This document shows, in pieces, positions 1 to 16,515 of a DNA stretch of 24,495 nucleotides. Location: IMG/VR virus record IMGVR_UViG_3300042465_002689, positions 1-24,495 of that record; one strand, 5' to 3'. Positions within the stretch are counted from its first letter, which is position 1. Each line of letters opens with the position of its first letter. Source of the stretch: a virus. The position numbers and the translations under genes were made by a program. The notes beneath the pieces were generated by a model. It was not told the DNA's origin and made no database searches. It worked only from the letters and a program-made list of their open reading frames with translations.

Positions 1-2548
1 CTAGTTCATCAAGGCTTGCACCAAGCGGGTCGGTTTCGCTTTTAAGGTCTTTAAACACTTGGTCAAACTTGAGCGCCTTAGCAACTTGCTCATTTAGGTC
101 ATTGCCAGCACGAATAAGGGTCTGCGCCCCTGCGCTGATACCCGTGACGATGCCTTGTTGGATTGCCAGTTGCGTGACGTATGCAACCGCAGCAGCTTGG
201 TCTTCACCAAAGTTCTTAACGCCAGCGCCCTTGGTGCGGCCAGCGCCAGTTGGGTCAACCACAAAGTCTTTATTGCGTTGACCAAGGCTAACCCTGACGT
301 TGCCACCCAATGTGCCACCAAGCTGCTCTGCGATGTTGCCAAGGCCTTTGAGCAAGCCATTAGCCATATTGTCAGCGATGCCCTTAAGAGCCGCGCTATT
401 GCCCGTCAAAGCACGTTCCATAGAACCGCCAGCAATTTGGTTAAGCGTTACGCTGCCCGTTTTGGTTTTCTTCAACAAGCCACCGACAAGGCCACCAATT
501 AATCCGCCAGCGATAGCGCCAAGAGGCCCAGCCATGCCGCCAAGAGCTTTCCCGAAGGTATCTCCAGCAATCTTTGTGCCAATGCTTTTTAACGCATCTC
601 CGCCAAAACTTTTGCCTAAAGCGCCACCAATGCCGCCGCCGATAGCTCCACCAGCGCCGCCGCCAACCATTTTACCGATTGCAGCATTGGCAAGTATGGT
701 CGCAAGTGAGCCACCAAAGTCCTTGAAAACGTCCTGCATATTTTGTGGCAATTCGTCAAAAATTGCCTTGAGGTCATTCTTCAAGTCGGGCGCGACTATA
801 TTTATCTCGTTGCCAAGGCTCTGTAAAAATGAGCCAGCACCGCCAAAAAGTTCGTCGGTTATGCTGACAAGGCCAGCAAGTGTTTCTTTTAGCTTTTCCG
901 CTTCTTTTTGCTTTAGGTCTAAAGCACTTTGGCCATTGATGAGGCGCATTTCAGCGGTGTAATATGCTAACCAAGCCGCACTGACATTGGTTAGCCCCTT
1001 AGCCAATAAGTCAGCTTTGAAAGCTTCTTCCTGCATACGCAGCGCAGCAATTTCACGCGCACGGCCTGTAAGTCCAAGAAGTGCATATTCATCAGCAAGC
1101 GCCTTTAGCGTCTTGTCTAACTCCTTATTTGCTTCCTTGCGTTTCTCTGCACGCAAACCTTCAACAAGTGCGCTACCCAATGCAATAATTTCATTGCGTA
1201 AATCTTCTGTAGGTGCAGCCGCAGCCTTTGCAGCGATTTCCATTTCTTTTAATTGTATCGCAGTTTTGCCAATAGCAGCAGCTTGGTCTTCCAAAGATTT
1301 TATAAAATCTTCAGCCGCCTTCTTATCGCGCTCAAATTGCTTTTGCTCATCAGACAAGCCAGCCTTCTTCGGCTTACCTTCGTTACGCTTTTCGATAAGC
1401 GCGGCAGCCTGCGCCGCCAAACGTGACTTGGTTGCGTCCAATGTGTTTTGTTTAATCTGAAGGCCAATTGCCTTCATGCCAGACAGGGCTTCGTTGTAAC
1501 GGCTGGCATAAGCATCAAAAACAGCGGCAGTTGTTCTTGCGGCAGCGCCAGCATTTTCATTGGCGACCCTGCCAAGTTTTACGCTTTCGACCTGTGCAAA
1601 AACAGCAGCCAAGCCCATTGAGGTCAGGACGCCGTTGGCCTTTGTGGTGACATAGTTAATGCCATCAAGCACGGTGTTGACCAGCATTTCGACGGCTTTG
1701 ATTGAAAGGTTTACCGCTTGAACAAACAGGTCGCCCAAAACTGCCGGAAGGTTTTTCCATACAATCTTGATGGCATCAAACGAGCCAGCAAAATAAGCAT
1801 AGATGCCAGCCGTTGCCATGCCAGCGCCTTTTAGAATTACATCAAAAGCTTGAACGGCAAATTCGCTTATGGATTGCCAAACTTGGTCAAGCCCAAGCCC
1901 TTCGCTGATTGTTGTCCATACGCCAGACAGCACATCACCAAAGGTAACATGGACGTTTTCAAGTTCGCGCAATTCCTTTTTGGTAAGGCCAAGGGAATTT
2001 GCGTAATCTTTAATCTCACCACTTTCAGCAACCGCCGACTGAAACTGCTTGAATGCTACATAAGCAGCAGTTGCAGCCGCAGCTATGCCCATTAAGATAG
2101 GGTTGGTTACGATTGCCAGTGTTGCCGCAGCAACCATTGAACCAAAGGCACGGACAACGCCGCCAATGCCAATTTGGGCTTGCGTCATAATGCCGCCAAT
2201 TTGAGCGCCCTGCTGAATGAAGGCGGTCAACGGATTTGCACCGCTGGCAATCTGAACACCCAAATCCTGAAACTGGAAGCCAAGGTTCATCATGTGATGC
2301 CGAGCAAGCTGACCAGTTTGACCAACGGCACGGTTTGCGTTCGCGGCAGCGATTTGCGCTTGTTCGCCCTGCTGAATGATGTTCGTCATGTTACGCATTG
2401 CCGAACCCGTGCTTTGGGCGGCAGTGCCTACATTACGAACATCTTTTTCTGCGGTTCCAGCAGCCGCACCAAGTGCATTAAGGTCAGTCGTGGCGGACTT
2501 AACATCACGGCTATCAACGCTAATTTTAAGGTTTGCTAAATCTGCCAC
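1..2548 (-). CDS. tail tape measure protein (3' part beyond window)
   Basis: Tail length tape measure protein, which sets tail length and is threaded through the tail tube. The reading frame begins at a GTG (2548) preceded by a GGGG ribosome-binding stretch 7 nt away, and stays open to the left edge, so about 849 residues are visible and the C-terminus lies outside. The N-terminus (VADLANLKISVDS) and the following Ala/Gly/Thr-rich helical part with hydrophobic stretches resemble the TMP_2 prophage tape measure family. A central charged coiled-coil part (KRKEANKEL-type) is followed by a glycine-rich hydrophobic segment (GGGAGGAIGGGIGGALG) of the kind thought to interact with membrane. It follows the tail chaperone genes, the canonical order. 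Long plus-strand frames over it are shadows. Confidence 0.9.
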   Translation of the reverse strand, partial: MADLANLKISVDSRDVKSATTDLNALGAAAGTAEKDVRNVGTAAQSTGSAMRNMTNIIQQGEQAQIAAANANRAVGQTGQLARHHMMNLGFQFQDLGVQIASGANPLTAFIQQGAQIGGIMTQAQIGIGGVVRAFGSMVAAATLAIVTNPILMGIAAAATAAYVAFKQFQSAVAESGEIKDYANSLGLTKKELRELENVHVTFGDVLSGVWTTISEGLGLDQVWQSISEFAVQAFDVILKGAGMATAGIYAYFAGSFDAIKIVWKNLPAVLGDLFVQAVNLSIKAVEMLVNTVLDGINYVTTKANGVLTSMGLAAVFAQVESVKLGRVANENAGAAARTTAAVFDAYASRYNEALSGMKAIGLQIKQNTLDATKSRLAAQAAALIEKRNEGKPKKAGLSDEQKQFERDKKAAEDFIKSLEDQAAAIGKTAIQLKEMEIAAKAAAAPTEDLRNEIIALGSALVEGLRAEKRKEANKELDKTLKALADEYALLGLTGRAREIAALRMQEEAFKADLLAKGLTNVSAAWLAYYTAEMRLINGQSALDLKQKEAEKLKETLAGLVSITDELFGGAGSFLQSLGNEINIVAPDLKNDLKAIFDELPQNMQDVFKDFGGSLATILANAAIGKMVGGGAGGAIGGGIGGALGKSFGGDALKSIGTKIAGDTFGKALGGMAGPLGAIAGGLIGGLVGGLLKKTKTGSVTLNQIAGGSMERALTGNSAALKGIADNMANGLLKGLGNIAEQLGGTLGGNVRVSLGQRNKDFVVDPTGAGRTKGAGVKNFGEDQAAAVAYVTQLAIQQGIVTGISAGAQTLIRAGNDLNEQVAKALKFDQVFKDLKSETDPLGASLDEL

Positions 2549-2582
2549 GCTATAACCCCGTCCAAAGTTAATTGCCTATACC

Positions 2583-2921
2583 TTAAAACTTTCTGCTTGT
2601 CTTGCCCACATTGATTTTATCAGCCCATGATGACATTGCATCAGAAATCTTTTGCCTACGCTGCTCCGACAAGATGTTTGGGTCTACCCAAGGCGGTGGG
2701 CAATTAACATCACTGGCTTGCCCCAGCATATAGGCATATTCCTTGGATAAAGTGCGGACAGCCCTTGCTTCCCAAGGACTTAAGCTGACACCTTGGTTGT
2801 ATTGCCAAGCCACAAGGTCAACTTCATCAATGCCAATTTGCTGCCCCATGCCAGATGATTTAGATGGGCCAACTTCAAATAATATTTCAAGCAAGTGAGC
2901 GCCAGCCTCAATTTGAGGCAT
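2583..2921 (-). CDS. tail assembly chaperone, downstream (T-like) frame
   Basis: The 112-residue product from ATG 2921 contains MPQIEAGAHLLEILFEVGP, a WQ..GV.LSPWEA block and a C-terminal CPPPW motif, a pattern I know from short phage proteins encoded between the tail chaperone and the tape measure (T in the G/GT pair). The ATG has no convincing ribosome-binding site. The frame is open upstream across the end of the preceding chaperone gene, so the protein may instead be made by +1 (or -2) frameshifting from that gene. It ends 35 nt before the tape measure start. Position and motifs support the role; the mode of translation is unresolved. Confidence 0.75.
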   Translation of the reverse strand: MPQIEAGAHLLEILFEVGPSKSSGMGQQIGIDEVDLVAWQYNQGVSLSPWEARAVRTLSKEYAYMLGQASDVNCPPPWVDPNILSEQRRQKISDAMSSWADKINVGKTSRKF

Positions 2922-2973
2922 GGCGTCCGACTTGGTTTCCCGCCGAGGACGCTTTGCCCCCGACGGAATTGTA

Positions 2974-3420
2974 TTAATCCAAGCTGATTGTTTTACGAAC
3001 AGGAGCAGTTGCTGGAGCGTCTGTGCGAAAAAAGTTAGCGCGATTGCCAACAAACTCCTGCACTTGCTCTTTAATCCATGCCCAATCGGTGTAGACCATG
3101 CGGACGTTATCAGGCGTAAATTCAAGTTTTTTGCCATCAAGGGCAAAGCCCGTCCATGCAGTTGTAAGCTTGACCAAATCTTCAATGCTATCTTCCGACA
3201 GCTTTTCAGCGTCAAGGTCGATAGCCTTTTTGCCCTTAGCCATACGGTTAAGTGCAGCCTGTTGCTTGCCCATTTGCAATTTGCGGTAAACTTTGCTGTC
3301 CTGCCCAAGAAGGGTAATCGTCATGCCGTCAATCAGTTCTTCTGTTTCAGGATGCACAATATTAAGAACAGCGCCATCGTCAGCCATAACTGGCTTCAGC
3401 GAATTTAGGTCAAAAGACAT
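2974..3420 (-). CDS. tail assembly chaperone (G-like)
   Basis: 148-residue acidic/helical protein starting MSFDLNSLKPV, with the early TETEELIDGMTITLLG-type strand pattern and a conserved aromatic stretch (LTTAWTGFALDG, then a TPDN...Y.....W...Q block) typical of phage tail assembly chaperones that follow the tail tube gene. These chaperones bind the tape measure and recruit tail tube subunits, and are absent from the virion. ATG 3420 is preceded by GGAG at 7 nt spacing. It lies directly downstream of the tail tube gene, separated from it by a stem-loop. The last codons overlap the open T-like frame. Assignment rests on position and family-like pattern. Confidence 0.8.
   Translation of the reverse strand: MSFDLNSLKPVMADDGAVLNIVHPETEELIDGMTITLLGQDSKVYRKLQMGKQQAALNRMAKGKKAIDLDAEKLSEDSIEDLVKLTTAWTGFALDGKKLEFTPDNVRMVYTDWAWIKEQVQEFVGNRANFFRTDAPATAPVRKTISLD
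2990..2997 (-). other. candidate +1 frameshift site (CGT AAA AC)
   Basis: Near the end of the upstream chaperone gene the zero-frame codons CGT AAA ACA contain a run of four A. A tRNA on AAA can re-pair with AAA one base downstream, moving the ribosome into the frame that continues through the downstream T-like product. The zero-frame stop (TAA) is at 2974-2976. Another candidate is the T run at 3028-3033 (TTT TTT CGC). Sequence-only inference. Confidence 0.3.
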
Positions 3421-3506: not shown

Positions 3507-3965
3507 TTATGCAGCAACCTTAACAACCGAATTGTCGATTTCAAGCGTAACTTCAGCCATCGTGATGGCGTCAGCATTACCGACATTGACCTTGTAGGAC
3601 ATAACTTGAGCCGTAAAATACTGGATTTCGCCGTTGACCAAGGCAACCTTGACCGAAACTAGAGCGTCAGTGCCAGCAGCAGCTTCAGCCGAGTCTTGCA
3701 GAATGGTTTGACCAGCGTCATCTTCTGACACAGCCATCGTCAATGCTACCGAACCGTAGTTCAGCGAACCGCGACGCTTGGCAACAATGCCAGTAGCAAG
3801 CGGGGTGTGTGTAGCAAGTGCAGCTTCAGCACCGAAAGCTGGCAATTCAGCCAATTCGCCGCAAGCCGACCAAGTAAGGGCAGCAAAGCCAGTAGCGTTG
3901 TAAGTGGCAGGGGCGTTAGCCGACACCGAAACAATAGTGCCAACCGAAGAAACAATATCAGACAT
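3507..3965 (-). CDS. major tail (tube) protein
   Basis: 152-residue protein (MSDIVSSVGTIVSVSANAPA...) rich in Ala, Val, Thr and Ser, with alternating hydrophobic beta-strand pattern, a mid-protein KRRGSLNYGSVALTMAV segment and a C-terminal strand (ITMAEVTLEIDNSVV) as in tail tube proteins of siphophages. It would polymerise into the hollow tail tube around the tape measure. ATG 3965 has GGAG at 8 nt spacing. It follows the tail completion genes and precedes the chaperones, the usual place. A 57-nt leader upstream may carry a weak promoter, and a strong stem-loop follows, fitting high expression. Confidence 0.85.
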   Translation of the reverse strand: MSDIVSSVGTIVSVSANAPATYNATGFAALTWSACGELAELPAFGAEAALATHTPLATGIVAKRRGSLNYGSVALTMAVSEDDAGQTILQDSAEAAAGTDALVSVKVALVNGEIQYFTAQVMSYKVNVGNADAITMAEVTLEIDNSVVKVAA

Positions 3966-3986
3966 AATTCAATCTCCATGCATGGG

Positions 3987-4016
3987 ATTTAACATTTAAC
4001 ACAAAAAAGCAGTCAA
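3987..4016 (-). promoter_or_regulatory. possible weak promoter before tail tube gene
   Basis: In the 57-nt gap upstream of the tail tube gene the minus strand shows TTGACT (4011-4016) and TTAAAT (3987-3992) with an 18-nt spacer. The -10 match is mediocre (4 of 6), so this is only a candidate for an internal promoter boosting tail tube mRNA. The gap also contains the palindrome CCATGCATGG just before the ribosome-binding site. Confidence 0.25.
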
Positions 4017-4022
4017 GTCACC

Positions 4023-4406
4023 CTAACGCATTTTGCGTTCTGCGCGGTTGATTGCTAACCGCACCATACCACTTGGCGCTTGCTTTGACCATTGCTCAAA
4101 TTCAAGTCGATAAATGTATGGCAGATTGTTGCTAATCCAAAAGATGTTGCGCGGCGCACTGGCTATATCATCAGAAGCCCTACTGATGGCAACGCCAGCA
4201 GCAGATGGAGCGCCTTCATATTCAATAGTCGCTGCTGAAGGTGAGCCAATGCTTGTAAACCAGTTGGCCCTAGCTCTGCCCGTATCGACAGGCGTGTTCA
4301 AAACGATGTCCGACAACAGGTCTAAGCAGACTTTGCTAATAACGGCATCAGCGGCTTCTTCAGCCTGTTGAGCAAACTTTTTTACGTCTAAGCTAAACGT
4401 GGTCAT
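4023..4406 (-). CDS. HK97 gp10-like tail completion / neck protein
   Basis: 127-residue protein with the hallmark block NTPVDTGRARANW (about residues 37-49) and a later NLPYIYRLEFEQWSKQAP segment ending in MVRLAINRAER, as in the HK97 gp10 / minor tail protein family acting at the head-tail interface. ATG 4406 overlaps the stop of the upstream gene as ATGA, indicating translational coupling. It lies between the tail terminator and tail tube genes, where gp10 homologues sit. Family assignment is fairly firm; the exact structural role is inferred. Confidence 0.82.
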   Translation of the reverse strand: MTTFSLDVKKFAQQAEEAADAVISKVCLDLLSDIVLNTPVDTGRARANWFTSIGSPSAATIEYEGAPSAAGVAISRASDDIASAPRNIFWISNNLPYIYRLEFEQWSKQAPSGMVRLAINRAERKMR

Positions 4407-4798
4407 GCGAAGGCTCTGTAAGTCACGCTTACAGGTATAACAAAGCGGTCACCAGACATAAATGCGGGGTTCTGTGTCGTGCGCTGTATCGTCACTGTAA
4501 CGCCATCATAAACAAGCCTATCGCCACGCTGGAAAGCAGCGGCAACATCATCGGCAGTGCTTCGTGCTGGGCCTTTGTTGGCGTCAGCAGGGGCATATAC
4601 AAGCACTTGGTAGACACCGCTAAACTCATCAGAAGCTGCGCTTGCAATGCCCACAGGGGTTGTGTCGCCGCTCAACAGGCTTTCGCTTAGGTAAATTTGT
4701 CCATTGGTGGGTGTAAACTTAGCATTTTCCCAGTGCGTAGGCAGGTCAAGCGTATCCAATTGGGTCGCAAGTGCCGCGCTTATTTTGCTGTTAATCAT
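4403..4798 (-). CDS. tail terminator protein (DUF4128-like)
   Basis: 131 residues beginning MINSKISAALATQL. The pattern 'P..WEN..F.P..G..Y' (PTHWENAKFTPTNGQIYL) followed by SGVYQVLVYAPA, a helix with AAAFQRGDRL, and a C-terminal strand VIPVSVTYRAF is typical of DUF4128 proteins, regarded as tail terminators related to lambda gpU. Such a protein caps the tail tube when the tape measure length is reached. Start ATG 4798 overlaps the upstream stop by 8 nt, and the stop overlaps the gp10-like start by 4 nt, a tightly coupled neck/tail-completion operon. Confidence 0.82.
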   Translation of the reverse strand: MINSKISAALATQLDTLDLPTHWENAKFTPTNGQIYLSESLLSGDTTPVGIASAASDEFSGVYQVLVYAPADANKGPARSTADDVAAAFQRGDRLVYDGVTVTIQRTTQNPAFMSGDRFVIPVSVTYRAFA

Positions 4799-8894: not shown

Positions 8895-9919
8895 GGCGCA
8901 ACTTTATTGACTGTTAGAATGATGGATGGTGTCCGTGGTCTAACGGGGGCAGTTCGTGCTGGCAATCCTGCAATGTAAACCAACTCGCTGGCCGCAGACC
9001 ACATCAACCTGAAATATTCGTCTTTCTGCGCCCGATAGTAAAAATTCCATGCAGCAACAGCAGCGCCGTTATAGCTGCCATGCTTTTTAGGCACAGTAAT
9101 GTCCGTGCAGCTATCAGGCTCCGCTACGCCATCACGGGCAAGCCAAATGCTAACGTCATGCTCTTGGCTGTCAGAATTAAGCAACTGTGCGCTAAACTGG
9201 ATGTTATACAATCCGCTTTCGCTAAAGACCACGCGCACGTTGTCTTCAATCCCAATGCCGTAATTTTCTATAACGGTGTCAAATTCCATCGCTGTTGCGG
9301 TATTCGCAGCGTGTGTTTGCGTCTGCACATCAACGGCTGACAGATAAACAGGCTTGGGAATACCACCACCGCTACCGCCACCAATTATTCTTTTGGGTTT
9401 CGGCAGTTCAATCTGAAACTCTCGCCCGTCTGTCAGTGTTATCCAGAAAGACGTATCGTCGCGCTGTTCCACCAGTGCCACACCAACGCCGTCGGAACCA
9501 GCAGCACCAGCAGCACCGTCCCGACCATTGCTACCATCCCGACCATCCCGACCATCAGCACCATCGCGGCCATTGCTTCCAGCAGGGCCAACCAGTGAAG
9601 CGCGGTTAATTTCAAACCAGACATTGACGGCAAGTTGTATCTCCTCATCCGTTGGTGGGCGACCTTCTGGGCCTTGCTGCCCGTCTTGTCCGTCAACACC
9701 GTCGGCTGGCTGCGATATGTTGTCTTGCAGCCAAGCGACAGCAGCAGCTTTGATTTGTTCGTCAGTAACAGGAGGTGCATCTTCGCCCCGTTCACCTTGT
9801 GGGCCAGCTTCACCTTGCGGCCCCTGTATCAATGTGCGCGACAAAGCATCGTTCGTGCGCTGGTTTAACGCAGCAACAGCCTCTACTAGCGAGGCAATGA
9901 TTTCCTCGCTGACAGCCAT
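8891..9919 (-). CDS. collagen-like fibre protein with C-terminal jelly-roll
   Basis: 342 residues. An N-terminal helical segment (1-32) is followed by three Gly-X-Y stretches at about 33-47, 74-86 and 111-146 (GPAGSNGRDGADGRDGRDG), the first two separated by helical spacers of the type PPTDEEIQ..V..W. A Lys/Gly linker leads to a C-terminal beta-rich domain (about 200-342) with THAANTATAMEFDT, YNIQFSAQL, ITVPKKHG and ELMW-like strands, resembling the C1q/TNF-like trimerisation domains of phage proteins. Collagen repeats plus jelly-roll imply a trimeric fibre. The place between portal and MuF genes suggests a head or neck fibre rather than a tail fibre; this is inference. Confidence 0.85.
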   Translation of the reverse strand: MAVSEEIIASLVEAVAALNQRTNDALSRTLIQGPQGEAGPQGERGEDAPPVTDEQIKAAAVAWLQDNISQPADGVDGQDGQQGPEGRPPTDEEIQLAVNVWFEINRASLVGPAGSNGRDGADGRDGRDGSNGRDGAAGAAGSDGVGVALVEQRDDTSFWITLTDGREFQIELPKPKRIIGGGSGGGIPKPVYLSAVDVQTQTHAANTATAMEFDTVIENYGIGIEDNVRVVFSESGLYNIQFSAQLLNSDSQEHDVSIWLARDGVAEPDSCTDITVPKKHGSYNGAAVAAWNFYYRAQKDEYFRLMWSAASELVYIAGLPARTAPVRPRTPSIILTVNKVAP

Positions 9920-9921
9920 TC

Positions 9922-11433
9922 TTAAAGACCCAAGCGGCTGCGAATGTTAGCCATCAACGTCTGTTCTTCAACGTCATTGCTATCGTCACCATTGTTATCT
10001 TCAGGCATATCTTCTGCGAAAGACGGGCCTTCGTCGGCCAACTGCGCTTCGTATTCTTCAAACTCCATGCTTGGCGCAATAAGTTCGCCACGCTGGAAGT
10101 TATCAAACAATACCGAAAGCGGCATTGCATCGCCTTGGTATGCACCAAGCAATGCTGTAACCATCTGTGGAGCCATACGCGCTGCGCCAAAGTCTGTGTT
10201 TAGGTCAAACTCAACGTCCTGCGGTGCGCCTACCCATTCAGCCATCCAGTTAAGCACCCGTGTCATAGCGTCGGATGCCGAGCGGCTAATTGAAGCAAGG
10301 ATGGAGCGTTCGCCAGCAGTCTTTAATTCGACCGTTCCAAAGGCTTCAGCGGTGCGCTTATCGTCGGCAAGCATCCGTGCGCCAAGCACTGCCATGCGTT
10401 GCTCTTTGTCTTTCAGTGCTTCCCGCAGCGTCTTCAGGCCATCGCCCTTAAATTCAAGGTAGCCAGCGTTTGCGGCTGGGTCAGGGAATATCCATGCGCT
10501 CATCGAGCCGACAGAAAGCGTTGCGCCCTCTGGAAGCTGGACACCCGCAACATATGGGGTAGGCAAGCCCGTGAAATGCAAGCCATGCTCATAATCGGCG
10601 CTGTTACGATAGTGGGCTAGGTTTGTGTCTACCAAGTCAAGCAATGGCGGCTTCTGCACTGTTGCAGTCGCGCTGTTCGCACCAAGGATAACGAACGGAA
10701 TATACGACAACGGGCCACCGTTCTGTATGGGATACGTTTCGCTTTTCAGTGCGTTGCTATCGTCCATTACGCGAACGCGATAGCCCTGTTCCGTAAGGTC
10801 AAGCACCCGATATTGCACAACCTGATTGGATGTGAATTCATCTTCCTGCACATCAATGGTTTCTTTAAGCACAACCAGTGTCAGCACTTGTGCGCCGTTA
10901 ATGTAGCTAGTGCGCCAGTTGATGATGCTTTCGGCGGTGTAATAACGCAGGAATGGGCGGATGTTTAAGGCTTCCGCTGCGGCAATCGTGATGTTGGTCG
11001 GCGCATTGGCTGGATAATCGACCATGATGCCGACGCGACCAACAGCGATTTGTTGCTCGACAACTTGTTCGCTAAATTCGCGCAGATTATCGCCAGCAAG
11101 CGTTATGTCATCAGCATAAGGCTCAATCGCGGTTGGCAGCTTATAAACTGGGTCTTTGGCAAATATCATGCCCGTGAAGGCATCCAGTGTCCGTGCGCTG
11201 GCGTTGAAGAAAGCAGCACGTTCCTGATAAGTGATATATTCAACATCCGTCTGGCCTGTAAGCCGTGGCAGATAGTTGTTGGTGTCGAATGACGGGTTGT
11301 AGAGGCTTCCAGTGTAGCGTGTATTGCTCACATAGTTCTGGATTAAAGCGTCACGACCAGAAATGACATCGCGGCAACGCTTCCACTTAAAGCGGTTAGC
11401 GTCATATTCGGTGTTGGTGTTGGAGACAGACAT
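9922..11433 (-). CDS. portal protein (DUF4055 type)
   Basis: 503 residues. N-terminal YDANRFKWKRCRDVISGRDA, RLTGQTDVEYITYQERAAFFNA, GRVGIMVDYP and RPFLRYYTAESIINW are the conserved blocks of DUF4055 phage portal proteins. A long C-terminal helical wing with AEAFGTVELKTAGERSILAS is followed by an acidic tail (ADEGPSFAEDMPEDNNGDDSND). Twelve copies would form the portal ring at one capsid vertex, through which DNA is packaged. ATG 11433 follows the terminase stop without a gap (TAAATG), with GGGGTG just before. Order terminase-portal-MuF is canonical. Confidence 0.95.
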   Translation of the reverse strand: MSVSNTNTEYDANRFKWKRCRDVISGRDALIQNYVSNTRYTGSLYNPSFDTNNYLPRLTGQTDVEYITYQERAAFFNASARTLDAFTGMIFAKDPVYKLPTAIEPYADDITLAGDNLREFSEQVVEQQIAVGRVGIMVDYPANAPTNITIAAAEALNIRPFLRYYTAESIINWRTSYINGAQVLTLVVLKETIDVQEDEFTSNQVVQYRVLDLTEQGYRVRVMDDSNALKSETYPIQNGGPLSYIPFVILGANSATATVQKPPLLDLVDTNLAHYRNSADYEHGLHFTGLPTPYVAGVQLPEGATLSVGSMSAWIFPDPAANAGYLEFKGDGLKTLREALKDKEQRMAVLGARMLADDKRTAEAFGTVELKTAGERSILASISRSASDAMTRVLNWMAEWVGAPQDVEFDLNTDFGAARMAPQMVTALLGAYQGDAMPLSVLFDNFQRGELIAPSMEFEEYEAQLADEGPSFAEDMPEDNNGDDSNDVEEQTLMANIRSRLGL

Positions 11434-12687
11434 TTACACCCCAGAAATTTGAGCAAAGGATACCGTTCCTCTACCGATAGCATATTTATATGCAATAAAA
11501 TAGCCGATAGCATCATTCAGATGGTCAAAGCCGCTTGATTTATCTGGTTCGCCATTTTTGGCATAGGCTTGGCGCTCCAGACCTTCAATCACATTAGGGC
11601 ATTTGTCAGGATTGACCAATAGCCTTCGCTTGCCTTGGTTATAAATCATCTGATTGACTGCCATCAGCCTATCTTTGACCGCAGGGTTTTTGCTGTTTGC
11701 CAATACCGTGAAGCCAGCCGACCGAAGCAACGTCAAATCTGACAGGCTGGCGTTGACGCTCTTGGTCGCGCCGCCCGATGCGTCAGGGTAAACCGTTATT
11801 TGATGCCCAGCAAAGCGTTCCTGTAATACCCGTATGAGCGTTGGCGTATCGCGCACACCCGATAATTCATCCAGTGCCAGCGGGTCGTTATTCCGTATCA
11901 CGCACACGACGGCGCTCATGTTGTTGACGTTGAAGTCAACACCGATGTGGAGTGGTTCGCGCTGTTCAATGGTCGCAAAGGTGATATTCAGTTTGCGGTC
12001 AAATTCTGGATATATGCTGCCAGCGGTAAGGTTGACGAATTCACCATCAAGGTATGCAGCAAGCAAGCTGGCGCTGTAGCTGTTTTGCAAGTTCTGGATG
12101 TAATCAGGTGGAAGGTTGGCGGCATTGTCGGATGTCTTGGCTTTGAACAGCGCATAGCCCTCGGCCTTGTTCTTTACCCAGCGGTCATAGACAAAACGGA
12201 AGCCTTCAGGCGTGGTGGCAACGCCGACAGTATTGCGGACAGGCTTGCCACTGATGGTAAAGGCCTTCTGGCGGTTACGGGCGATAATCTTGTTCCAGAC
12301 AGCCCGTGCCTTTTCGATGGGCAGCGTATCAAGTTCATCGACAACGCTATGGGCGACTTCGTAACCGACGATGCGGTCAGGTTGCTCCATGTTGCGAAAG
12401 ATGATGCGGCCCAGTTCCGTTTCCAGCACAGCCTTTTGCTGGTTCAGCTTGAACGGGATGTTGTTGCGCTCAAACAAAGCGGGGAAGCGTTGGAAGGCGA
12501 TGTCTTCAATCAGCGGATAGGTTGGCAAGTAATATGCAACATCCTGATACGGGCAATAACGCTTTAAGCGCATAAGCCGTGCGATACCCGCAGCCGTCTT
12601 GCCAGAACCAAATCCGCCGACGAAAGCAGGGAATGGGTCTGTGCTGTATATGAAATCCTTTTGGCTGGGCGTGAAGGTCAAAGCCAA
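11434..12687 (-). CDS. terL: terminase large subunit (packaging ATPase/nuclease)
   Basis: 417 residues with Walker A GGFGSGKT (24-31), Walker B HSVVDELD (113-120, catalytic E118), the coupling-type TTPEGF block (158-163), YLDGEFV (212-218) and nuclease motif IGVDFN (D251) with a later DHLNDAIGYF acidic site. It powers DNA translocation and cuts the concatemer. The start is TTG 12687: an in-frame TGA lies two codons upstream, and the first ATG would come after the Walker A motif. Overlaps the small subunit gene by 10 nt, with GGA 6 nt upstream. Confidence 0.95.
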   Translation of the reverse strand: MALTFTPSQKDFIYSTDPFPAFVGGFGSGKTAAGIARLMRLKRYCPYQDVAYYLPTYPLIEDIAFQRFPALFERNNIPFKLNQQKAVLETELGRIIFRNMEQPDRIVGYEVAHSVVDELDTLPIEKARAVWNKIIARNRQKAFTISGKPVRNTVGVATTPEGFRFVYDRWVKNKAEGYALFKAKTSDNAANLPPDYIQNLQNSYSASLLAAYLDGEFVNLTAGSIYPEFDRKLNITFATIEQREPLHIGVDFNVNNMSAVVCVIRNNDPLALDELSGVRDTPTLIRVLQERFAGHQITVYPDASGGATKSVNASLSDLTLLRSAGFTVLANSKNPAVKDRLMAVNQMIYNQGKRRLLVNPDKCPNVIEGLERQAYAKNGEPDKSSGFDHLNDAIGYFIAYKYAIGRGTVSFAQISGV

Positions 12688-13070
12688 TCTTCATCCGTAA
12701 TAGGCTTGAAGTGCATATTAACGGCCAGCTTGGTCGGTTCGTTATAGCCGTGCATGATGTTTAGTTCTTTGACAGCAGCCGTCATGCCCGTTGATGCCTT
12801 AGCTTCCAGCGCAATCCTGTATGCGCTCATTAAGCCCTTAACGGACATTTCGCGTGTCCATAATTGCTTTTCGGCAACCTGCGCTTTCAATTCGGCAACC
12901 CTTGCCGTAACCTTTCCGTCACTCATAAGCACAGACGCTTTGGAATAAATGGTGTTATCCTTCATGCCTTCAGCGTCATAAGCCATGCGATAAGCGTCTG
13001 CTTGGCCTAAGCCATCAGCTATGCCTTGGCAGAATGCTTCTTGCTTTGCGGTCAGTTTAGCGTCCGTCAT
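12678..13070 (-). CDS. terS: terminase small subunit
   Basis: 130 residues from ATG 13070 (MTDAKLTAKQEAFCQGIADG), preceded by GGGGAAG. An alternative ATG at 13094 would add 8 residues and overlap the methyltransferase more. The N-terminal block LTAKQEAFCQGIADGLGQADAYR and the Y.A.....N.TI..KAS.L....V..R..EL pattern are those of the Terminase_2 family, a helix-turn-helix DNA-recognition domain followed by oligomerisation helices. It would bind the packaging site and load the large subunit, which overlaps its 3' end. It overlaps the upstream gene by 14 nt. Confidence 0.92.
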   Translation of the reverse strand: MTDAKLTAKQEAFCQGIADGLGQADAYRMAYDAEGMKDNTIYSKASVLMSDGKVTARVAELKAQVAEKQLWTREMSVKGLMSAYRIALEAKASTGMTAAVKELNIMHGYNEPTKLAVNMHFKPITDEDWL

Positions 13071-14205
13071 CGAAGGCTTCCCCTGTTTCTGCATGAACGG
13101 CCTTCTTACCAGTGAAGTCCTGCCAACGCTTGATAATTACATCACTGAATTTTGGGTCAAATTCCATAATGAAAGACTGGATGCCGTGCTTTTCTGCCGC
13201 AATAAGTGTAGAGCCACTGCCACCAAAATAATCAGCAATTGTGTTAGCAGACAGATTGAAGCGCTTAATAATCCACTCCATTAAAGCAACTGGTTTTTGA
13301 GTGGGATGGACGCGGTTTGTTTTCTCGCTTGCCATTGTAAACTGCCTCACAACACTGCGGAAGTTTGCCCATGCAAGCTCACAATCCGTTTGGTCGCTTC
13401 CACCATTGTTCTTGTCCCAAACAAGCCAGCACTCGCTGTCAGGTAATATTGAGCAATAGTAATTTGCTCCCCACCAAATTTGTTTGGCGTTTGGATATAA
13501 CCCGTAAATTAGATGGAAAGCATCTTTAGCAACATCAGGGTTATCATCACCCAAAATGTCCGTTTTATAGTTTTTCTTTAGCACCGATGATTTGCTGACA
13601 GCATTCATTCCATAAGGCGGGTCTGTATGGATTAAGTCTGGATAAACACCGACCATAAGCTTATTGATGTCATCAATGCTGGTGCTATCCCCGCACATAA
13701 GCCGATGGTTACCCAGCACCCAAACGTCACCAAGAACGGTCTTTGGCGTTTCAGGCACTTCAGGAACAGCGTCTTCGTCGGTCAGCCCGTCCGTTGGTTC
13801 TGGCTCAAGCAAGCCATCAAGAAACTTTTCGTCAAAGCCCAGTAGGTTAATATCGAAGTTCTCCAAGTTGAGGTCTTCAATTTCAGCCTTCAGCATATCC
13901 ATGTCCCACCCTGCGTTTAGCGCAAGCTGGTTATCGGCTATCACAAGGGCGCGTTGCTGTGCTTTGGTCAAGTGGTCAAGGATAATGGCTGGCACTGTGC
14001 CTAAGCCCAGTTTTCGTGCGGCCAATAATCGGCCATGCCCTGCAATGATGGTGTTATCGCCATCAATTAGAATTGGGCTGGCCCATCCGAATTCCTTTAT
14101 GCTTGCCGAAATTTGAGCGACCTGCGCGTCGCTATGCGTCCTGCTATTAGCCGCATATGGAATAAGTTCTGCAACGCTTCGATATACAACTTGCAATTCA
14201 GACAT
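13057..14205 (-). CDS. ParB-domain DNA methyltransferase (N4/N6, beta class)
   Basis: 382 residues from ATG 14205, coupled to the HNH stop by an 8-nt overlap. Residues 1-100 are a ParB/Srx-like domain (LIPYAANSRTHSDAQVAQI, then GWASPILIDGDNTIIAGHGR). The catalytic motif DPPY is at 195-198, RVHPTQKP at 298-305 and the SAM-binding FGGSGST at 327-333. The order DPPY before FxGxG marks the beta class. It modifies an adenine-N6 or cytosine-N4 of an unknown site, probably shielding phage DNA from restriction. It sits between the HNH gene and the terminase genes, a frequent site for such enzymes. Confidence 0.92.
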   Translation of the reverse strand: MSELQVVYRSVAELIPYAANSRTHSDAQVAQISASIKEFGWASPILIDGDNTIIAGHGRLLAARKLGLGTVPAIILDHLTKAQQRALVIADNQLALNAGWDMDMLKAEIEDLNLENFDINLLGFDEKFLDGLLEPEPTDGLTDEDAVPEVPETPKTVLGDVWVLGNHRLMCGDSTSIDDINKLMVGVYPDLIHTDPPYGMNAVSKSSVLKKNYKTDILGDDNPDVAKDAFHLIYGLYPNAKQIWWGANYYCSILPDSECWLVWDKNNGGSDQTDCELAWANFRSVVRQFTMASEKTNRVHPTQKPVALMEWIIKRFNLSANTIADYFGGSGSTLIAAEKHGIQSFIMEFDPKFSDVIIKRWQDFTGKKAVHAETGEAFDDGR

Positions 14206-14833
14206 ACTCTGCGTTCCATCCATAACATGATTTTCTATTGCCATTTGCAACGGCGTGAATTGATTGTGGCCTAAATCCGTTTTTGACCAAATCAGCGCAC
14301 CCATAGGCAATAATGACTTTGCTGCCGTTTGTTAGTTTGATGGGCTTAGTATTATGATGCTTTGCGCCCATTTTTACCAACCCTGTAGATACAGCATGGC
14401 GCTTGTTTTCGCTTGATGTAACATATTCTAAATTGCTGGCGCTATTATTAGCCTTATTGCCATCAATGTGATTAACTTCCATGTTTTCGGGGCATGGGCC
14501 AATCCAGCAATGGGCGACCAACCTATGCACCCTAATTTGTCCGTTTTTTGTCCAATCTAAACGCCTCATGGTTGTTAGCTTGTAACCGTCTTTGTCGTTA
14601 CATTGCGACAATATTTTTGCGGCCCTAACGGAAGTGCCGCCCCACCGATTTTTATATTCATGAGGCAATGAAATAATGACGCCACACTTCGATACGGCAT
14701 AATCACCAATCATAACCCATTCTTTTATGCTTGCCGCTATTTGGGCGACCTGTGCATCGGAATGAGTGCGGCTGTTTGCAGCATACGGGATTAGGTCAGC
14801 GACAAGGCGCTGTTCAATTTTGGGGTTGCTCAT
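14198..14833 (-). CDS. HNH homing-type endonuclease fused to ParB-domain remnant
   Basis: 211 residues. Residues 1-38 are nearly the same as the start of the downstream methyltransferase (27 of 30 identical over 9-38). At residue 39 the sequence changes abruptly to a NUMOD4-like segment (EWVMIGDYAVSKCG), then an HNH_3-type core VHRLVA (102-107) and NHIDGNKANN (121-130), and a C-terminal NUMOD/helix-turn-helix DNA-binding part (FRPQSIHAVANGNR). Key H103, N121, H122 and N130 are present, so it may be active. ATG 14833 has AGG 4 nt upstream. A self-mobile endonuclease inserted in a methyltransferase gene is the best reading. Confidence 0.88.
   Translation of the reverse strand: MSNPKIEQRLVADLIPYAANSRTHSDAQVAQIAASIKEWVMIGDYAVSKCGVIISLPHEYKNRWGGTSVRAAKILSQCNDKDGYKLTTMRRLDWTKNGQIRVHRLVAHCWIGPCPENMEVNHIDGNKANNSASNLEYVTSSENKRHAVSTGLVKMGAKHHNTKPIKLTNGSKVIIAYGCADLVKNGFRPQSIHAVANGNRKSCYGWNAEYV
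14720..14833 (-). repeat. diverged copy of methyltransferase 5' end
   Basis: These 38 codons are a diverged paralogue of 14092-14205, the first 38 codons of the methyltransferase gene. By eye roughly three quarters of bases agree, with many differences at third codon positions. Similarity stops at the HNH junction. The divergence argues against a recent duplication within this genome and for arrival together with the endonuclease from a related phage. Confidence 0.8.
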
Positions 14834-14879
14834 TGCACCTTGTTATATGACCATTATCATTTTGGCAACTGGCGCATAA

Positions 14880-15017
14880 TTATTTGACAAACTCTTTCCA
14901 TTGCCAGTTTGCCCATTGCCGCATTGCATCGCTTGACCATTTATGCTTGCGCCATTTTGCAAGCAGCGCCGCCTTATCCTTAACCTTGCTTAACTTATAG
15001 GCTATCAGGTCGGTCAT
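14880..15017 (-). CDS. small basic, tryptophan-rich hypothetical protein
   Basis: 45 residues beginning MTDLIAYKLSKVKDK, then LLAKWRKHKWSSDAM and a Trp-rich end WANWQWKEFVK. The frame overlaps the upstream HTH gene by 23 nt and stops 46 nt before the HNH start. There is no good ribosome-binding site, so translation would rely on coupling. Composition (five Trp, many Lys) looks like a real small DNA-associated peptide rather than chance, but no family is recognised. The remaining 46 nt before the HNH gene hold nothing obvious. Confidence 0.5.
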   Translation of the reverse strand: MTDLIAYKLSKVKDKAALLAKWRKHKWSSDAMRQWANWQWKEFVK

Positions 15018-15240
15018 ATAGTCCGTGCCAGTCATCATCGTTTTCGTCTTCAAAGGGGTCGTATCCCTTTAGCATAGCATCGACAGCAACGGAAATAGGC
15101 CCCGTGATGTTGACCTTTCCAGCCTCCATCTTTCGGATGCTTGTTGGCCCTGTTGTGGGTGACAGGCGCAAGGCGTCGGCCATGTCTGTCAGGCTGTAGC
15201 CAAGATAATTTCTTGCTGTCTTTAGGTCTGATGGTTTCAT
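14995..15240 (-). CDS. XRE-like helix-turn-helix regulator
   Basis: 81 residues: SDLKTARNYLGYSLTDMADAL, then SIRKMEAGKVNITGPISVAVDAML, which is the five-helix XRE DNA-binding layout (helix-turn-helix about residues 15-40), followed by an acidic tail (DPFEDENDDDWHG). Probably a transcription regulator of the late operon or a small DNA-binding protein. ATG 15240 overlaps the upstream stop as ATGA. The target site is not evident. Confidence 0.78.
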   Translation of the reverse strand: MKPSDLKTARNYLGYSLTDMADALRLSPTTGPTSIRKMEAGKVNITGPISVAVDAMLKGYDPFEDENDDDWHGLYDRPDSL

Positions 15241-15479
15241 TCTGCGGCTTCCATTTTTTTCATCTTCTGTAATGCATGAAGAATTGTGCTATGGTCGCGG
15301 CGCATTATGCGACCAATTTCGGGAGTGCTAAAGCCTTGCTCACGAAAAAACTTTATACATTCGTAACGCACTTCGACCAGCACCTTAAAGCGTCGTGGCC
15401 CAAGAATGTCGTGCCTATCATATCCATAATCTGACGCAATGTGGTCAATGATGGTCAGGTTTCTTTCGCGTGGTGTCAT
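15237..15479 (-). CDS. stand-alone DnaA domain IV-like DNA-binding protein
   Basis: 80 residues from ATG 15479, chosen because GAGGAG lies 6 nt upstream (a longer frame starts at 15533 inside the upstream gene). The whole protein matches DnaA domain IV: DYGYDRHDILGPRRFKVLVE, then EIGRIMRRDHSTILHALQK, with the DnaA signature RDHSTILHA at 61-69. The ATPase domain III is absent, so it can bind DnaA-box-like DNA but not melt an origin. It could compete with host DnaA or act as a transcription factor. Overlaps the HTH gene as ATGA. Confidence 0.85.
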   Translation of the reverse strand: MTPRERNLTIIDHIASDYGYDRHDILGPRRFKVLVEVRYECIKFFREQGFSTPEIGRIMRRDHSTILHALQKMKKMEAAE

Positions 15480-15480
15480 T

Positions 15481-15732
15481 TTACGCTCCTCGTTGAAGGT
15501 AAAGGGCTTCTTCAAGCAATTGGTCTTGGACATCGCGCAATTGGTTTATTCGCGCATAATGCTCATTGCGGTCTGCAATGCACTGGTCAACATTGCTTGG
15601 ATAATCGCGTCCATTGGGCGTTATCAATTTTAAGATTTTTATGGCAGCTTCAATTGCGTCCATCGCGTCTATGCGGCCACGAATAAGTTCTTCTTTGCTG
15701 GTTCCGTTTATATTTAGCGTTGGGGTTATCAT
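15481..15732 (-). CDS. hypothetical helical protein
   Basis: 83 residues, mainly helical and charged (ELIRGRIDAMDAIEAAIKIL; NQLRDVQDQLLEEALYL), ending two nt before the DnaA-like start. ATG 15732 has AGGAA upstream and a short stem-loop further upstream. No family recognised. First-in-line position in the late/regulatory operon suggests an early accessory role. Nothing indicates membrane location. Confidence 0.7.
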   Translation of the reverse strand: MITPTLNINGTSKEELIRGRIDAMDAIEAAIKILKLITPNGRDYPSNVDQCIADRNEHYARINQLRDVQDQLLEEALYLQRGA

Positions 15733-15751
15733 GTCATGTTCCTTTCATGGC

Positions 15752-15764
15752 GAGGCTGGGCCTC
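15752..15764 (-). promoter_or_regulatory. leader stem-loop before 15732 gene
   Basis: On the minus strand, GAGGC-CCA-GCCTC: a 5-bp stem with a 3-nt loop, 19 nt before the ATG, followed by CGCCATGAAAGGA. The same layout, including the CGCCA after the stem, occurs at 16040-16052 and 22802-22815. The spacer between the two genes is only 38 nt and has no promoter. Confidence 0.55.
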
Positions 15765-15770
15765 TGAAAA

Positions 15771-16019
15771 TTATTTGTTCCAGCAGCGAACCATGTGGTT
15801 AGCAAATTCCATGCTGTATGCGTCATCCGTTTTTACAAAAAATGTAACCGAACGATTGCTGGCTTTAACCTTAAAAACTTTAGGATTAAAAGCATCTGGA
15901 TAAGCCTTGGCAATGTGGGCCATGCGCTGATTGCATTCCAGTTCATCGTTAAAACATTCATGCATTGCCCAAAACTTATCTTCGGTGCAATAAACTTCAA
16001 AAGCGGTAAAATTCGTCAT
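15771..16019 (-). CDS. hypothetical protein, first gene of leftward operon
   Basis: 82 residues from ATG 16019, chosen because GGGA stands 7 nt upstream (an in-frame TTG at 16025 is less likely). The sequence MTNFTAFEVYCTEDKFWAMH, then an alternating strand FKVKASNRSVTFFVKTDDAY and a final HMVRCWNK, suggests a small alpha/beta fold of unknown function. It is the first gene behind the strong leftward promoter at 16066-16094. Confidence 0.72.
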   Translation of the reverse strand: MTNFTAFEVYCTEDKFWAMHECFNDELECNQRMAHIAKAYPDAFNPKVFKVKASNRSVTFFVKTDDAYSMEFANHMVRCWNK

Positions 16020-16039
16020 AATCAAATCCCTTATGTGGC

Positions 16040-16052
16040 GGGGCAGCGCCCC
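16040..16052 (-). promoter_or_regulatory. leader stem-loop of leftward operon
   Basis: In minus-strand RNA GGGGC-GCT-GCCCC folds a 5-bp stem with 3-nt loop starting about 7 nt after the predicted transcription start and ending 20 nt before ATG 16019. It is followed by GCCACATAAGGG, which contains the ribosome-binding site. Close kin of the element at 22802. Confidence 0.6.
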
Positions 16053-16065
16053 TCGTTGATGACCC

Positions 16066-16094
16066 CTTATACAAAGGTTGGTTTATCCTGTCAA
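16066..16094 (-). promoter_or_regulatory. strong leftward sigma70-type promoter
   Basis: Minus strand: perfect -35 TTGACA (16089-16094), 17-nt spacer, -10 TATAAG (16066-16071). Start of transcription would be near 16059, giving a leader of about 40 nt for the gene at 16019 and the whole leftward late block, unless there are further promoters. It diverges from the rightward promoter at 16142. Confidence 0.85.
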
Positions 16095-16121
16095 CACCTT
16101 TTTTCATAAAATAAAACTTTT

Positions 16122-16143
16122 TTTATATATGAAAAAGCCTCTT
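16122..16143 (+). promoter_or_regulatory. operator-like motif, copy A
   Basis: TTTATATATGAAAA followed by AGCCTCTT matches copy B at 18781 in 19 of 22 positions and resembles copy C at 22764. Here it lies between the two divergent promoters and its last two bases overlap the rightward -35 box, so a protein bound here could repress or activate the rightward unit. The inner palindrome is less perfect than in copy B. Confidence 0.6.
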
Positions 16144-16170
16144 GACATTGTGTTCCGACCTTGCTATAAG
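16142..16170 (+). promoter_or_regulatory. strong rightward sigma70-type promoter
   Basis: Plus strand: TTGACA (16142-16147), 17-nt spacer, TATAAG (16165-16170). It has the same boxes and spacing as the divergent leftward promoter. Transcription would start near 16177, leaving a leader of about 60 nt before ATG 16238. Confidence 0.88.
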
Positions 16171-16199
16171 GCATTTGTCAGCAGCACAAAGCTGTTGAT

Positions 16200-16212
16200 G
16201 GGGCTTGGCCCC
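16200..16212 (+). promoter_or_regulatory. leader stem-loop before 16238 gene
   Basis: GGGGC-TTG-GCCCC, a 5-bp stem with 3-nt loop, 25 nt before the ATG. The GGAG ribosome-binding site lies between the hairpin and the ATG. The stretch from 16026 to 16237 is otherwise filled by the two promoters and an AT-rich core. Confidence 0.55.
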
Positions 16213-16237
16213 GCTCTTTGACAATTTGGAGACTGAT

Positions 16238-16474
16238 ATGACTTTGAAAGACCTACGCGCACGGGCTGCGTCCATTGGCATCCGCATTGAAGCTGAACGC
16301 TTTGACGTTCCAGTGGGCGGCAACTTCTGGGGCTATTGGCTCATTGATGAAAAGACCAATGATGGCGTCTGGGATGATGAAAATTATTGTTCCGACCATC
16401 AGGAGTTGAGCGAAGCGTTACGGAAGCTTGAATTTGAACGTGGCGTTAGATGCAAGGCAATGATGCCCTTCTGA
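16238..16474 (+). CDS. hypothetical protein in moron-like unit
   Basis: 78 residues from ATG 16238 (GGAG 6 nt upstream; an earlier in-frame start would have no leader and no such site). MTLKDLRARAASIGIRIEAE, then GGNFWGYWLIDEK, DDENYCSDHQELSEAL and KLEFERG. The pattern suggests a small alpha/beta protein; similar unnamed proteins occur in alphaproteobacterial phages. It stands alone: its own strong promoter upstream, a terminator right after the stop, and genes on both sides on the other strand. Such units often carry lysogenic-conversion, superinfection or anti-defence functions, but nothing in the sequence shows which. Confidence 0.8.
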   Translation: MTLKDLRARAASIGIRIEAERFDVPVGGNFWGYWLIDEKTNDGVWDDENYCSDHQELSEALRKLEFERGVRCKAMMPF

Positions 16475-16479
16475 CAAAG

Positions 16480-16515
16480 ATGGCCCCGCCTTGATTGGTG
16501 GGGCCATTCTTGTTT
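16480..16515. terminator. bidirectional intrinsic terminator
   Basis: Stem of 11 bp (ATGGCCCCGCC with GGTGGGGCCAT, one G-U in plus-strand RNA), loop TTGATT, then TCTTGTTT. It begins 5 nt after the stop of the rightward gene and ends at the stop codon of the converging mazG-like gene, so it can end transcription from both sides. Confidence 0.85.

Follow-up and report, generated by a model that had tools for sequence, protein, structure and literature searches.

Architecture of the HNH-methyltransferase locus

The window, by which we mean the whole 24,495-nt stretch of viral DNA analyzed here, carries two overlapping genes on its minus strand: an HNH endonuclease ORF of 211 amino acids (14198-14833) and, downstream of it, a ParB-methyltransferase gene of 382 amino acids (13057..14205). 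The HNH ORF matches three families annotated as HNH endonuclease (phrog_59, phrog_959, and phrog_1492) and consists of a 38-codon ParB-type start (14720..14833, minus strand) and an HNH body that runs from codon 39 to the stop (14198..14719, minus strand). The catalytic and NUMOD modules of the NUMOD/HNH homing endonuclease class are both recognizable on the same strand, as a Pfam HNH_3 domain at residues 101-145 (about 14399-14533; E 1.8e-14) and as a weak NUMOD4 match at residues 43-85 (about 14579-14707), although the latter lies below the curated cut-off. The body has no conserved in-frame start: codon 41 is ATG in the window and CTG in the two closest relatives of the chimaera (contigs L003 and L004), and a more distant relative (L220) has none. 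An AlphaFold model of the chimaera, built from an alignment of four sequences, reached a mean pLDDT of 48, too low to be of use.

The methyltransferase gene has an open frame with DPPYG and FGGSG motifs, an N6_N4_Mtase domain, and a ParB_N match slightly under the cut-off; a match to phrog_498 (DNA methyltransferase) spans residues 4-380. Its frame stays open upstream as far as a TTG at 14310, but we take the ATG at 14205 as its start because homologous genes begin at this MS.. position. The HNH stop and the methyltransferase start share eight nucleotides, ATGTCTGA (14198..14205, minus strand), and the identical overlap is present in L003 and L004. This is compatible with coupled translation of the two genes, and the overlap and open frame bear out the first-pass annotation in its view that an intact gene is regenerated there. 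An RBS-like AAGG (14838..14841, minus strand), which now belongs to the HNH ORF, comes from the resident ParB-methyltransferase gene, and the context in which it stands, ..ATAACAAGG(T/G)GCA-ATG, is common to most uninterrupted alleles. The window also encodes, at 15237-15533 and upstream of a small HTH gene, a small protein with a DnaA C-terminal HTH domain (Bac_DnaA_C, E 7e-12).

The beginnings of the two genes are homologous and diverged. When 14720-14833 and 14092-14205 were compared codon by codon, 29 of the first 45 residues were identical in register, as against only 1-5 identities in shifted registers; over residues 9-38 the agreement is 27 of 30, as had been claimed for the first 38 residues of the HNH protein and of its neighbor. 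The match breaks off at codon 38/39, where the ASIKE of both proteins continues as WVM.. in the HNH ORF and as FGW.. in the methyltransferase, so that the abrupt end reported in the first-pass annotation is indeed found where the HNH sequence starts, with only the weak, below-cut-off NUMOD4 match to name the sequence that follows. At the DNA level, the copies differ at 32 of 105 positions, yet these differences amount to only eight residue changes, which excludes an assembly echo or a recent duplication. Two familiar explanations for an endonuclease within a gene were also considered. A group I or group II intron was rejected: no Rfam intron was found in window positions 12600-16500, in L003, or in L004, and an intron would leave the duplicated exon start unexplained. 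An intein is excluded, since the HNH ORF stops before the new start codon.

The travelling copy and the uninterrupted alleles

Scanning viral contigs with the chimaera recovered two further full chimaeras, those of L003 and L004 (95-96% identity), along with 15 contigs that match residues 1-39 only, where these residues begin a ParB gene that is not interrupted; a scan of genome contigs, with patterns lying in the ParB part, returned ParB relatives only. The comparison of close element copies is accordingly one of three. Across these genomes, the HNH body is identical at 502-516 of 522 nt (96-99%; 502-506 for the window against L004 or L003) and the 5' end heading the methyltransferase at 111-113 of 114 nt (111-112 for the window against L003 or L004), whereas the 5' copy within the HNH ORF agrees at just 81-95 of 114 nt. 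The window's 14720-14833 matches the corresponding part of L003 and L004 at 79-81 of 105 nt, and the 60 nt upstream of the HNH ORF at only 11 of 60. Binned by 30 nt, the alignments show high identity in a single stretch, which opens in the last codons ahead of the junction and closes at about codon 42 of the downstream gene, with a drop on either side. The body of the HNH gene therefore moves together with the downstream 5' end but not with the HNH N-terminus. The mobile unit is thus made up of two parts, an HNH body that lacks a conserved start and a replacement for the 5' end of the target gene (about 41 codons, 14083..14205, minus strand), and the N-terminus of the HNH protein is the displaced start of the resident gene.

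The adjacency of the two 5' ends is what would be expected if the 5' end had been duplicated in tandem in place, if one of two tandem genes had decayed, or if the assembly were at fault. We regard these explanations as scarcely credible. The window's downstream copy matches its own upstream partner at 73 of 105 nt, but the same part of the other elements at 102-103 of 105; the arrangement recurs in independent contigs; and same-lineage relatives have a single, uninterrupted copy. The last observation also counts against the earlier suggestion that two tandem methyltransferase genes existed and the first was destroyed, as the sampled same-lineage relatives carry one uninterrupted copy at the site.

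A search of relatives for HNH-free ParB-methyltransferase genes, which the first-pass annotation had proposed, yielded two same-lineage alleles of this kind. One of them, L022, is 90% identical to the window over 14721-15492, a stretch that covers the upstream flank of the HNH ORF along with the 5' copy inside it, and 88% identical over 9393-13058, and it carries an uninterrupted gene at the site (ASIKEFGWTNP). Its 5' end agrees with the window's upstream copy at 98 of 105 nt, without a single residue change, and with the downstream copy at 67; of the 60 nt upstream of the resident start, 57 are identical. L232, found through a shared upstream gene, is the matching empty allele for L003, with 96 of 105 nt in common with the upstream copy of L003 and 76 with its downstream copy. 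The HNH gene is thus present or absent at one precise site (window versus L022, L003 versus L232), and the displaced native end, which at 14720-14833 matches L022, is kept across the nuclease gene from the replacement end. Fisher tests on the 5'-copy counts gave p between 5e-4 and 3e-9, values that serve as guides only because the sites are not independent. In a tree of the 5' ends, the three downstream copies form one clade (support 0.965) apart from all uninterrupted alleles, and the upstream copies of the window and L003 adjoin their own empty alleles. The upstream copy of L004 groups with L102; an empty allele of clearly the same lineage as L004 was not found among the sampled relatives.

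These comparisons reverse part of the history first proposed for the locus. Insertion at codon 38 of a ParB-methyltransferase gene stands, but the identity of the foreign copy does not: it is the copy heading the methyltransferase that travels. The endonuclease had been thought to arrive with its own 5' flank, a foreign ParB N-terminus placed before an intact native methyltransferase, and the divergence of the two 5' ends is in keeping with this. The HNH N-terminus, however, matches the empty alleles of its own lineage and varies between elements, and it is the 5' end of the methyltransferase that stays constant; the comparisons with L022 and L232 contradict the scheme, and we consider it highly improbable. 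The copy in the HNH ORF is instead the resident start. A donor lineage for the replacement 5' end was looked for and not found.

The gene in which the element resides is itself variable. An N-terminal ParB part is common to L004 6620-7402, L003 5456-6685, and window 13057-14205, and the C-terminal parts differ, comprising two different methyltransferase halves and, in L004, a third C-terminus with no assigned function. The ParB-methyltransferase locus is modular and mosaic, and the right boundary of the element is blurred as a result. A nucleotide search of phages matched the methyltransferase in part only, in six records.

Related arrangements beside other HNH genes

A more distant case comes from another phage, L220, whose HNH body is 52% identical to that of the window. 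Here too the HNH gene is fused to a ParB 5' end at the same codon (MSNYKYIILDIKDLIPYVNNSRTHSDDQVNQIASSIKE followed by WAV), and the ParB gene that comes next bears another 5' end (MSKLVITYKNIDEIIPYINNSRTHSKEQITQIKSSIAEFGM). That so divergent an endonuclease sits at the same codon indicates that the arrangement persists across long divergence.

We also surveyed NUMOD/HNH genes for translated similarity between the upstream and downstream DNA abutting them, with other ORFs of the same loci as controls. Initially, 17 of 146 HNH regions were positive, compared with 1 of 328 control ORFs, the one control positive being of low complexity. After duplicate HNH genes were removed and loci added, 13 of 162 HNH genes were positive, and setting aside the doubtful flank similarities in L122, L224, and L293 leaves 10 of 162 (p 1e-4); a weakness of these figures is that the abutting criterion was fixed after the first positives had been seen. 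Among the survey positives, polarity was tested for the window's element only. The HNH genes of 13 loci from annotated cultured phages included none with abutting end duplications, so the frequency differs between samples.

Positives of the 5' type involve ParB genes, terminase large subunits (L132, L200-203, L296), and a helicase (L159), and those of the 3' type a terminase (L108), a phrog_513 family protein (L110), and exonucleases (L264, L117/L119). In L132 (2270-2971), 5' ends of the terminase large subunit stand on both flanks of the HNH gene (MMFQYTTAIKKIRAMT / MFSYTSAISRIRRMT and similar), and likewise in L200 (about 3860-4590) and L296 (about 2320-3090). From such flanks, the terminase large subunit appears as a second target gene for 5'-end replacement. 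In L159 (about 215-1035), a helicase 5' end (MELRPYQDEIAKKATKILKECGFVYLSMEV, then a stop) lies upstream of the HNH gene, and the intact helicase gene downstream of it carries a second 5' end. The 3'-end duplications (L108 3228-4560, L110 3177-4443, L264 3069-4617, L117 1032-2376) follow a WHO-like order, with a complete gene upstream, then the HNH gene, then a second 3' end. Fusion of an HNH body to a resident 5' part also occurs in Salmonella phage epsilon34 gp31 (EaE-like/HNH, EU570103), where the body is likewise in frame; unlike at our locus, the genes after the fusion have no repeated EaE start and a flank duplication was not detected. We therefore rejected this fusion as a second case, the regenerated gene being absent.

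The terminase genes beside related HNH genes have a further peculiarity. In L132, L187-L193, L194-L199, L200-L203, and L296, their frame is broken at the Walker A codons, between GGTSAG and KT, by an insert of roughly 30-45 nt with an in-frame stop and a strong hairpin, and the reading frame continues beyond it; the insert is often flanked by matching codons (GGA..GGA in L132 and L192). In sequence, this looks like translational bypassing of the T4 gene 60 type beside a homing endonuclease, for which the terminase of Streptomyces phage Hau3 has been suggested as an earlier case (PMC5009743).

The survey bears on two further explanations of the window's locus. Ordinary phage recombination could have spread the arrangement, with the HNH gene no longer, or never, the driver of homing, and the methyltransferase region is mosaic in general. 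But three resident sequences and the distant L220 share the junction codon, the HNH_3 motif is intact, and HNH genes have end duplications beside them more often than other ORFs do, so that we hold this to be unlikely. Selection could also have kept the ParB N-terminal half as a part that works for the endonuclease in targeting or regulation; it is fused at the same codon in the window, L003, L004, and L220, and it is intact in all of them. Recruitment of this kind seems very unlikely, however: the segment and the endonuclease are not inherited together, in the window and L003 it equals that of their own empty alleles at the protein level, as resident origin explains, and the related HNH genes that target terminases and helicases are not similarly fused to the displaced end. 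The earlier proposal that the chimaera keeps a target-recognition segment at its N-terminus loses ground for the same reason, the segment being whatever the resident gene had.

End replacement as a probable homing strategy

Very probably, then, codon 38/39 of this phage ParB-methyltransferase gene is occupied by a homing-endonuclease element that puts a new 5' end on the gene it enters. The boundaries of the unit, the native origin of the HNH N-terminus, and the regenerated open frame of the target emerge from comparison with empty alleles and with the other elements, and the same comparison shows that the HNH ORF is now headed by the resident RBS and start codon and by the first 38 resident codons, all left behind upstream. 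During co-infection, the HNH protein would cut an uninterrupted allele near codon 38/39, and repair would introduce both parts of the mobile unit; the displaced 5' copy (14720..14833) is proposed as the left homology arm, and the remainder of the gene would serve as the right one. The HNH protein would then be translated as a fusion from the resident start, and the methyltransferase by coupling from the replacement start. A short left conversion tract would fit, since ahead of the junction the three elements have no more than the last few nucleotides in common.

Sequence differences in the replacement end may also make the regenerated gene harder to cleave. Its junction, AAGGAATTCGGATGGGC, departs from that of L022, AAAGAGTTTGGATGGAC, at only a few bases, and two of these differences occur in some empty alleles too, with both AAG and TTC in the empty allele L015, so that self-resistance through sequence difference is no more than a possibility.

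The closest parallels lie in fungi. WHO elements of Torulaspora and Lachancea yeasts replace the 3' end of the nuclear gene FBA1; their cleavage has been tested experimentally and is allele-specific, with conversion tracts of 5-14 bp on one side and 106-306 bp on the other (PMC7282813). As in WHO, the mobile unit pairs an endonuclease gene with a replacement gene end that travels with it (111-113 of 114 nt downstream versus 81-95 of 114 upstream), the target gene is regenerated, and the displaced end is retained as a second homology region (PMC7282813). Resistance through allelic differences, shown for WHO (PMC7282813), is proposed for the phage element. The two differ in the nuclease, which in WHO is an intein-derived LAGLIDADG zinc-finger protein and here HNH, and in the end replaced, the phage element taking the 5' end and the victim's start codon and WHO the 3' end (PMC7282813). 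The phage element works like WHO, and by nuclease family and replaced end it is not a member of the WHO family.

The mORFs of fungal mitochondria (Allomyces atp6; Glomus atp6, atp9, cox2, and nad3), which are mobile endonuclease ORFs, similarly bring a foreign gene end in place of the native one, with the displaced native end closer to relatives than the new end; they replace C-terminal ends, however, and are mostly LAGLIDADG (PMC3630166). Among phages, T4 mobA and gene 60 offer an HNH homing gene inside a coding region, but mobA splits its gene in two and a duplicated start is not described there; the bypassed 50-nt insert of gene 60 is thought to be protective against cleavage (PMC2988022, PMC5009743). 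The mycobacteriophage ShiLan has HNH homing in a methylase gene without splicing, but its HNH gene lies in another frame of an uninterrupted methylase ORF, and the gene end is not replaced (PMC11855218). The only descriptions of the end-replacing trick we could find are those in fungi, where it is the end of the gene that serves as the spare part; our search of the open-access literature found no phage or 5'-type case, although an earlier description is possible, as subscription papers lay mostly outside it.

Without an intron or intein, a homing endonuclease gene is usually confined to intergenic positions. The element described here is a way to occupy a gene without splicing, by bringing a spare copy of the part it displaces, and it is a mirror-image phage counterpart, built on another nuclease family, of the WHO elements of fungi. 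In principle, it resembles what synthetic home-and-rescue drives carry as a rescue copy (PMC7968924). The chances are about even, in our estimation, that end-replacing homing is a general and overlooked route by which NUMOD/HNH endonucleases enter useful or essential phage genes. The replacement 5' or 3' end would provide a built-in rescue whose sequence differences also give resistance, with the 5' kind, which lacks a start codon, taking that of its victim and some terminase-targeting relatives adding an insert that may be bypassed. If the route is general, it would explain HNH genes fused to fragments of neighboring genes, as well as abrupt phylogenetic breaks at gene ends, and the frequency with which homing replaces the ends of phage genes would become testable.
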